From assembly GCA_958431225.1 (NCBI GenBank), contig OY288107.1:1949501-2013500 (forward strand): a DNA stretch of 64,000 bases, given 5' to 3'. The position numbers and the translations under genes are program-made. The notes under the pieces were generated by a model, which ran no database searches, was not told where the DNA came from, and saw only the letters and a program-made list of their open reading frames with translations. This DNA comes from an uncultured Alphaproteobacteria bacterium. Its GTDB lineage: Bacteria; Pseudomonadota; Alphaproteobacteria; Puniceispirillales; UBA1172. Positions 50,948 through 52,370 of the stretch are shown here, one piece after another. Position 1 is the stretch's first letter; each line of letters opens with the position of its first letter.

Positions 50948-50992
50948 CATTTTTTGCTTGCCACCTATAACAAACCTCTATATCCCCGAATG

Positions 50993-51097
50993 TGCGACAA
51001 AATTTTATAAGGAACCCCTTTCGTCGGGTTGCCTACCCAATAGAACACCTTCGGGAAATAAGTAGGATTTGTAAAATTCCTTATAAATTTTGTCGCA
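50993..51097. repeat. 105-bp inverted-repeat element upstream of the lipoprotein gene
   Basis: The left arm TGCGACAAAATTTTATAAGGAA (50993-51014, first 20 shown by position) and right arm at 51077-51097 are reverse complements with a single one-base length difference in the T tract. The 62-base interior contains GGGT/ACCC and CCTAC/GTAGG complementary pairs, so the whole unit could fold as a long stem-loop. A third, direct, imperfect copy of the arm lies at 51130-51150, ending in the ribosome-binding site of the next gene. No target-site duplication is visible. Could be a MITE-like remnant, a recombination site or a structured leader RNA. Confidence 0.7.
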
Positions 51098-51159
51098 AAA
51101 CAGCCCGGCCCTCTGGTCGTGGCTACACTTTGACAAAATTTGCTTAAGGAGTAAGTCCG

Positions 51160-52296
51160 ATGAAGAATAGAACCGAAGAAAATCGCAGAAATTTAGAAAT
51201 GATTGCGCCAACATGGACAATGTTGGGGCTGGCTTTAGCTGCTTGTGGCGGTGGGGGTGGAGGAGGTGGTGGAATTTCGGTTACCATACCACCGCCCATC
51301 AATTCTGGTCCGCCAGTTCCTAATGCTAGGATACCAAATATTCAGGAGGCTCCTCGGGGGAGTCCGCCGATTATTTTGACCGAAGGGCAGAATATGATTC
51401 CTGATGTGTATTATCGGTATGAATCTGCTAATCTTGGTGGCGGGACGGTTATTCATCATCCTCATCCTAGCACTGCGGTGGCTACTATTCCTGATATTAC
51501 TGTTGATGCTAGTGGCGCTGGTAATGTAGGTCAGGTAGCGGTTGAAGTTAATGGGTTAGTTTTGACAGATAGTGAACGATTTGACGGTATTAGTTTGAAT
51601 ATTCGGGTGGAGATAGATGATTATATTACTCATTATGATGGGCTAACTGTGGATGAAATAGTGGATGATATAGTAGATGATTCGGCTTCTTCGATTCGTG
51701 GTGATGCGGTTTCTTTGTCGTCTGCATGGACAATGAGATATTCAAATGGAAATGTTAGGGGGAGTGCTGAGATTAATGTCGCTGGTGCGCCTCAAAATGA
51801 TGGGTCTATTGATGTTATCGTGTCAATTTATGAGGATGTAAATGGAGATCTTTATTTTTCGTCTGGTAGTGGTCGGACACTTCTTGGTGATTTGGGGTAT
51901 TCTTTTAATTTACCAGAGCTAACGCCCGGTGCTACCGAGTTGGCTGTAAATATCTTGGGAATACCCGAGGGCAACGGGTACGATGTCCCGGTAATCTTTA
52001 CCAATGTTGCCAGAGATGGTTTCGGCAATGTTAAGATTGTCGCAGATGATGGTGCAATTGATTCGGCACCCGAATTATTACGCATTGATGCTGACGGCAT
52101 TACTGGCAACGCTTATAGCACAGGGCATGTTTGGTATAGGGACGATGTTGCAATTGCAGGTACGGGACATACCTATATGGCGACTGAAGCTGGGCGTTAT
52201 CATGCTGAGGTGGCTATTGATTTAGATGCTGACGGGAATCCTGATATTTTGGTTGAAACGCTCGCGGTTGTAGTGTCGGCGGCGGATATTGTGTAG
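51160..52296 (+). CDS. Poly-glycine lipoprotein of unknown function
   Basis: 378 residues with a membrane-targeting segment near 18-28 (TMLGLALAAC) that ends in a lipobox with a candidate lipidated Cys at 29, directly followed by nine Gly residues. The segment sits unusually far from the N terminus behind a charged stretch. A proline-rich spacer follows, then beta-rich repeats with Asp/Gly turns, ending with an Ig/PKD-like module (RIDADGITGNAYSTGHVWYR, then GTGHTYMATEAGRYHAEV and DLDADGNPD). It has an AAGGAG site. Codon use is visibly more AT-rich (GAT, GTT, ATT, GGT favoured) than both neighbours, suggesting horizontal origin or a distinct expression class. It interrupts the usual tpiA-secG adjacency. 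Probably a surface or periplasmic protein. Confidence 0.7.
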   Translation: MKNRTEENRRNLEMIAPTWTMLGLALAACGGGGGGGGGISVTIPPPINSGPPVPNARIPNIQEAPRGSPPIILTEGQNMIPDVYYRYESANLGGGTVIHHPHPSTAVATIPDITVDASGAGNVGQVAVEVNGLVLTDSERFDGISLNIRVEIDDYITHYDGLTVDEIVDDIVDDSASSIRGDAVSLSSAWTMRYSNGNVRGSAEINVAGAPQNDGSIDVIVSIYEDVNGDLYFSSGSGRTLLGDLGYSFNLPELTPGATELAVNILGIPEGNGYDVPVIFTNVARDGFGNVKIVADDGAIDSAPELLRIDADGITGNAYSTGHVWYRDDVAIAGTGHTYMATEAGRYHAEVAIDLDADGNPDILVETLAVVVSAADIV

Positions 52297-52346
52297 TTTG
52301 GTAATGTGCTTTGTTGGCATTTACCCCCCCACACCAAAAAATCGCC

Positions 52347-52370
52347 CCGCCGCGTTCGGCGGTAATTTTT
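52347..52370 (+). terminator. Intrinsic terminator after the lipoprotein gene
   Basis: CCGCCG (52347-52352) and CGGCGG (52357-52362) form a GC-rich stem with a CGTT loop, followed by TAATTTTT. Confidence 0.65.

Follow-up and report, generated by a model that had tools for sequence, protein, structure and literature searches.

The antisense RNA systems described so far that most closely resemble the locus analyzed here come from phages. The C4 RNA of phages P1 and P7 is an antisense RNA which blocks the ribosome-binding site (RBS) of an antirepressor mRNA (PMC12197685). In phage P4, the CI RNA is cut from a leader and pairs with the sequence seqA upstream and with seqC downstream, thereby leading to termination (PMC4825925). 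A further RNA to be considered is sRNA-Xcc1 (Rfam family RF02221), which was mapped experimentally as an 88-nt RNA in Xanthomonas (PMC2996969) and occurs in integron cassettes together with symE (PMC12444791); the passages of these two papers that deal with this RNA give no mechanism for it.

The present work describes the leader of a lipoprotein gene within a 64,000-nucleotide stretch of alphaproteobacterial DNA (the window). On the basis of comparative analysis, the leader, positions 50993-51151, probably encodes a self-repressing antisense RNA of the C4/P4-CI kind. Its parts are collected in Table 1.

Table 1. Predicted features of the lipoprotein leader (positions of the window)
Feature	Position	Strand	Basis
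Possible -10 element, TATATC	50979-50984	+	Sequence only
Arm 1, TGCGACAAAATTTTATAAGGAA; candidate upstream target, resembling P4 seqA / C4 a1b1	50993-51014	+	Complement of arm 2; swap test
P1 5' strand, GTCGGGTTG; the processed RNA is proposed to start here	51023-51031	+	P1/P2 covariation
P2 hairpin, 51032-51036 paired with 51062-51066	51032-51066	+	Covariation; aligns with the sRNA-Xcc1 core
P2 internal loop core, AATAnAACACC..GGnAATA, conserved	51039-51060	+	Comparison of copies
P3 hairpin, TTTGTAA[AATTCC]TTATAAA; loop is anti-Shine-Dalgarno	51068-51087	+	Minimum free energy (MFE) fold of 51023-51113
Arm 2, TTCCTTATAAATTTTGTCGCA; candidate antisense segment, resembling P4 seqB	51077-51097	+	Matches arms 1 and 3
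P1 3' strand, CAGCCCGGC, followed by CCTC in the window copy	51101-51109	+	Covariation
Alternative hairpin, predicted to capture the P1 3' strand upon arm 1:arm 2 pairing	51102-51124	+	Fold
Arm 3, GACAAAATTTGCTTAAGGAG; candidate second target with Shine-Dalgarno AAGGAG, resembling P4 seqC / C4 a2b2	51132-51151	+	Arm 2:RBS swap test
Gene for 378-aa lipoprotein, presumed to be controlled	51160-52296	+	Open reading frame; lipobox ...LAACGGGGGGGGG

Inverted repeat, third copy and folding of the leader

The initial annotation of the locus described two arms that are near-perfect reverse complements around 62 bases, and a repeat search bears this out: the mutually complementary arms comprise 13 nt at 100% and an overlapping 15 nt at 93%, with an inter-arm spacing of 62 nt. 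An ungapped inverted repeat of this quality appeared in 16 of 500 dinucleotide shuffles and is, taken alone, moderately unlikely. The further complementary pieces that had been noticed within the 62 bases correspond to P2 and to one half of P1, whose partner strand lies outside the repeat as it was first delimited. The third, direct copy running into the RBS is likewise present, albeit imperfect and two bases from the place initially given for it (51130-51150); its 3' end is the Shine-Dalgarno sequence, located 8 nt ahead of the ATG of the lipoprotein gene. When 51110-51160 was shuffled 2000 times, the direct likeness of arm 3 to arm 1 was equalled 5 times. Since shuffled sequences can attain both the repeat and the third copy, the evidence of the window alone is suggestive rather than proof, and the inverted repeat becomes certain only through comparison with further copies of the sequence, described below.

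Folding of the RNA, which had been proposed as a check, revealed the arm region to be far more stable than shuffled sequences (z = -4.89; none of 200 shuffles was equally stable). When the RNA 51023-51113 is folded alone, P1 and P3 form in the MFE structure, and arm 2 spans the P3 loop, the 3' side of P3 and the linker. For the full leader, there are two alternative folds of almost the same energy, one with arm 1 paired to arm 2 (-50.9 kcal/mol) and the other with arm 2 paired to arm 3 (-49.5 kcal/mol), and P1 and the arm 1:arm 2 helix are mutually exclusive in a nested fold. Both of these properties, together with the high conservation of the P2 internal loop, would also suit a purely cis-acting bistable leader, akin to an attenuator or riboswitch, whereby arm 2 would pair either with arm 1, leaving the RBS open, or with arm 3, closing it, while the P1/P2 core would sense a ligand or protein and no free RNA would be formed. 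This appears unlikely, however, in view of the core's being common to sRNA-Xcc1, a free 88-nt RNA according to the relevant passage of PMC2996969, and of the RCCA end and G+1 of these elements (see below), which are consistent with processing. Moreover, the downstream genes (lipoproteins, SNase, proteases and methylase) have no common pathway, unlike those expected behind a metabolite riboswitch.

Copies of the element and their conserved scaffold

The initial annotation suggested a search of the genome and its relatives for further copies. Two were found in the same genome, making three in total, and no additional ones at E <= 10. All three copies lie in the same sense, each upstream of a gene. 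The second exhibits 79% identity across the whole 181-base query and precedes the gene of a paralogous lipoprotein (G000:C1:1740276), and the third precedes a gene for a secreted SNase-like nuclease. Outside the arms, the copies share the core GTCGGGTTGCC...AATAnAACACC...GGnAATA..GG.GGA...CAGCCCGGC, which folds into P1 and P2. A model (R1), built from six copies, was used to search the genomes of the order and class and gave matches in 13 of 136 and 33 of 385 genomes, respectively, with at most 7 matches per genome. In all, 74 arm-type elements were gathered from Alphaproteobacteria; this set omits the weak model matches L021 and L158, keeps the weak match L020, and does not count as arm type the loci L181, L183-L185, L230, L232-L234, L236 and L169, which are of the Xcc1 type. 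In a search of the phylum, the matches checked outside Alphaproteobacteria were only of the Xcc1 type, without arm 1.

The covariation of P1 and P2 (0.474, compared to 0.199 in shuffles) demonstrates a conserved RNA architecture at the level of the alignment: both-sided changes occur at 13 of the 17 pairs, 98.3% of the cells are paired, and the signal vanishes upon a one-base slide. Compensatory base changes are present in the stems, and double changes are found in the arms as well. In one genome (G010; L006 1497-1811, minus strand), two arm-type elements occur in tandem, 225 bp apart, with a single SNase gene downstream, and the two differ in arm code.

Inverted arms in an element that recurs in the genome might also recall a MITE-like element or an invertible phase-variation switch, both of which were entertained initially. 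A MITE would be expected to occur in many copies, with terminal inverted repeats that are conserved, and an invertible site to have conserved arms for recombination and an interior found in either orientation. Here, only three same-sense copies exist, it is the internal core that recurs while the terminal arms vary, none of the 74 elements has an inverted interior, and the sense relative to the gene is constant, such that either explanation is hardly credible. The remaining suggestion of the initial annotation, namely that the leader RNA is structured and that the third copy competes for an arm, fared better, as across 58 loci the arm 2 of each element matches its arm 1 as well as its RBS copy; the conserved core, P1 and the kinship to sRNA-Xcc1 and C4 did not figure in it.

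The arms as an element-specific code

The arm sequences vary between copies, while the scaffold stays conserved. Arm 1 typically ends about 8-9 nt before P1, and the end of arm 2 usually lies 0-4 nt ahead of the P1 3' strand. The specificity of the arms was examined by a swap test with an ungapped score and 20,000 permutations, on the 58 elements whose start codon could be used, the RBS region being defined as the 32 nt ahead of the element's own start codon. The ungapped score was preferred to duplex energies over a loose window, which were blurred by GC-rich cross pairs. The arm 1:arm 2 pairs of the same element scored 31.9, compared to 17.2 ± 0.5 upon permutation (permuted maximum, 19.6), and own arm 2:RBS pairs scored 20.0, compared to 16.0 ± 0.42, a value reached by none of the 20,000 permutations. 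These scores demonstrate that arm 2 is matched specifically to the arm 1 and RBS of its own element; the RBS match is the weaker of the two and is not evident at each locus. Beyond the window, clear third copies are found at L009, L159, L163, L213 and L231 and on the viral contig L357.

In genomes with multiple copies, the self pairs gave -29.9 kcal/mol and the within-genome cross pairs -16.0 kcal/mol, and no more than 2 of the 166 cross pairs attain the self median; by this measure, the arm codes are mostly insulated among the copies of one genome. Within the order, one genus keeps the element between the gene for a B12-type ribonucleotide reductase and a RidA-like gene, where both arms change jointly across orthologues. 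Between the orthologous loci L012 and L024, the helix is kept via double changes (GCACAGGCGA/TCGCCTGTGC versus GCGAAAGCGA/TCGCTTTCGC).

Kinship with sRNA-Xcc1

Comparison of the window with 4227 Rfam families at curated scores yielded two tRNAs and nothing else; no known Rfam riboswitch or leader is matched at these scores. At a relaxed cut-off, sRNA-Xcc1 aligns at full length with the window element at 22.7 bits, and other arm-type copies tested score 25-46.3 bits, all below the gathering score of 53 bits, by which the window element is not a member of this family. Model positions 1-87, including P1, the P2 core and the P1 3' strand, are matched in the copies aligned. Among the 136 genomes of the order, sRNA-Xcc1 is not found above its cut-off; at the relaxed cut-off, its model recovers a subset of the arm-type loci in the order and matches 0 of 14 control genomes. 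A pattern derived from the shared core matched over 116 stretches among GTDB species and over 120 in IMG/VR, and 8 of 10 GTDB pattern loci tested hold at least one sRNA-Xcc1 match above cut-off.

In 185 loci of the sRNA-Xcc1 type, the P3 loop matches the RBS of the gene that follows (19.6, compared to 14.7 ± 0.19 permuted), and the upstream arm 1 is essentially absent (15.5, compared to 15.05 permuted). Six proteins sampled after such loci comprise BRO-N, ORF6N, AntA, SymE and two Rha proteins, one of which scores below the cut-off of Pfam. Apart from SymE, these are of the antirepressor type, the well-known kind of C4 target (PMC12197685). As its P3 loop complements the RBS of the next gene (L039-L154, L237-L356), Xcc1 seems to be a C4-like antisense leader and not an orphan sRNA, and a testable function can be offered for it, namely that it silences the gene immediately after it, which encodes an antirepressor or SymE.

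sRNA-Xcc1 and the window copy thus share the P1-P2-P3 layout, the P2 core (AAUAnAAnACC..GGGnAAU), the 3' end of P1 and a P3 loop that is antisense to the RBS of the following gene. The window copy differs in its 20-nt arm 2 and long upstream arm 1, and also in its gene context, since it precedes a lipoprotein gene whereas sRNA-Xcc1 precedes phage antirepressors. Rfam has no entry for the arm-type variant with its long 5' target, and this variant is nearly absent from viral contigs. Its exact pattern, which is a narrow one, occurs in a single IMG/VR contig, and the variant therefore seems chiefly chromosomal.

Downstream genes and genomic context

The lipoprotein of the window has no Pfam family above cut-off. 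Its paralogue has the same leader and the same N-terminus (MKNRTEENRRNLEMIAPTW). The two proteins (window 51160-51260; L004 3277-3380) share the leader and signal peptide and diverge after a poly-Gly stretch, the paralogue carrying cadherin domains, as though an expression cassette had moved onto different passengers. The paralogue locus (L004, G000:C1:1737000-1745000) adjoins ParA-like, replication-protein-like and PIN-like ORFs, as judged from the ORF sequences, and this copy may therefore belong to a plasmid-like island that has become integrated. In the same genome, sequences weakly matching the N-terminus of the lipoprotein occur at G000:C1:1692147, 99070, 56602, 22242 and 63213, and these fall in very large open frames of up to 8146 codons. 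At 52346-52370, between the lipoprotein gene and secG, lies a GC-rich hairpin that resembles a terminator, with a T-rich stretch behind it.

In all 19 genomes of the family or order in which both genes were found, tpiA is closely followed by secG. Compared to these relatives, the leader and lipoprotein gene form an insertion between tpiA and secG in the source genome only. Such an insertion, combined with a variable segment of about 20 nt which lies in a conserved scaffold and matches adjoining DNA, would be in line with a mobile-element guide RNA, similar to bridge RNA or omega RNA, in which arm 2 would guide to the adjoining DNA site, arm 1. However, no gene for a recombinase, transposase or guided nuclease adjoins the window copy, the second target lies over the RBS and not at the far end of the insert, and one genus keeps the element at one orthologous locus while its arms co-change, all of which renders a guide RNA highly improbable.

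The genes behind arm-type elements include those for Gly-rich lipoproteins, SNase, a serralysin-like protease, an outer-membrane beta-barrel, a Sel1 lipoprotein and a methylase. Their products appear to be mostly exported, as a hydrophobic N-terminal segment is predicted in 32 of 50, compared to 5 of 151 for Xcc1-type genes. This profile bears on the idea of a type I toxin-antitoxin-like module, in which the RNA would silence a harmful protein, as sRNA-Xcc1 might do beside SymE. The feature of being antisense to the RBS is common to both, and a copy of the Xcc1 type does precede SymE among the loci collected here, in agreement with the symE cassettes covered in PMC12444791. Nevertheless, the arm-type genes mostly encode exported proteins of many families, and a toxin signature is absent in the arm-type proteins scanned, so that such a module is very unlikely.

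Proposed mechanism and its implications

For the antisense leader favored here, we infer the following course of events from the arrangement of its parts. Transcription would begin near arm 1: given the possible -10 element, the start would fall at the 5' end of this arm, and -10-like hexamers are weakly enriched upstream of arm 1 in the 74 elements (16%, compared to 8.5% in shuffles). The acceptor-like stem P1, the core hairpin P2 and P3 would then be excised from the transcript, the cut being made probably by RNase P just 5' of G51023, with a 3' end near 51110. The substrate rules of RNase P are known and serve here to read the ends of the elements: P1 starts with G (G+1) in 72 of 74 elements, U-1 is found in 47 of 74, and a tRNA-like RCCA lies immediately 3' of P1 in 33 of 74, against a background of 1%, although the window copy lacks it. 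In light of these rules, the features suggest RNase P processing of the arm-type RNAs.

The excised RNA would measure about 88-90 nt, with the P3 loop and linker (arm 2) as its antisense part. Acting in trans, the free RNA would pair with arm 1 of nascent transcripts and with arm 3 across the Shine-Dalgarno sequence. The latter pairing would stop ribosome loading, perhaps with early termination, as in P4, whereby the lipoprotein gene would repress itself. In an uncut transcript, arms 1 and 3 would compete in cis for arm 2. As each locus has its own arm code, each copy would mainly control its own gene. Among the considerations that count against this scheme is the stability of the arm 1:arm 2 helix, which is so high that the RNA may rest mainly in that fold, with the RBS open.

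On balance, we lean toward the broader view that Alphaproteobacteria harbor an undescribed chromosomal branch of the phage-immunity RNAs, with private codes of about 20 nt, two cognate targets and insulation between copies. The genes that they would silence are those whose products are secreted or located at the surface, and sRNA-Xcc1 would be the phage and integron branch. If so, the C4/P4-CI antisense principle, described for phages, would extend to ordinary bacterial genes. The elements would also represent a natural set of antisense-target pairs that are orthogonal to one another and share a scaffold (at most 7 matches per genome). If variable lipoproteins are silenced by private RNAs, this would be relevant to variation of the cell surface and to the exclusion of phages.

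Comparison with C4 and P4 CI

In phage P4, which served as a control, the models of the c4-a1b1 target (RF03163) and of C4 match in that order along the transcript, the latter at 74.9 bits. By contrast, the C4 covariance model (RF01695) matches none of the elements tested, with E limits of 10 for L001-L003 and L006-L008 and of 1 for eight further loci, and Rfam C4 membership is therefore not claimed. In functional terms, the antisense segment is complementary to an upstream leader target, a match that none of the 20,000 permutations came near, and the same segment is complementary to the RBS of the downstream gene (0 of 20,000). The window copy is located between tpiA and secG, and not among phage, antirepressor or replication genes.

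IsrK/STnc1160 of the Gifsy-1 prophage is likewise a leader, one that yields two RNAs with antirepressor control (PMC4825925), yet it has no sequence match to the window. P4 CI acts by premature termination of a phage replication operon, from which the effect and the class of controlled gene may differ here, and arm 1 of the window element directly adjoins the RNA, unlike the P4 layout. Compared to C4, the window element lacks a model match and has a different P2, a longer antisense segment and chromosomal genes. Like C4, it exhibits a P1-P2-P3 fold, an antisense loop and linker, and targets upstream and at the RBS, and both sit in the leader of the controlled gene, which for the window element is a presumed role. 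The order seqA, seqB (within the processed RNA) and seqC of P4 CI corresponds to that of arm 1, arm 2 and arm 3.
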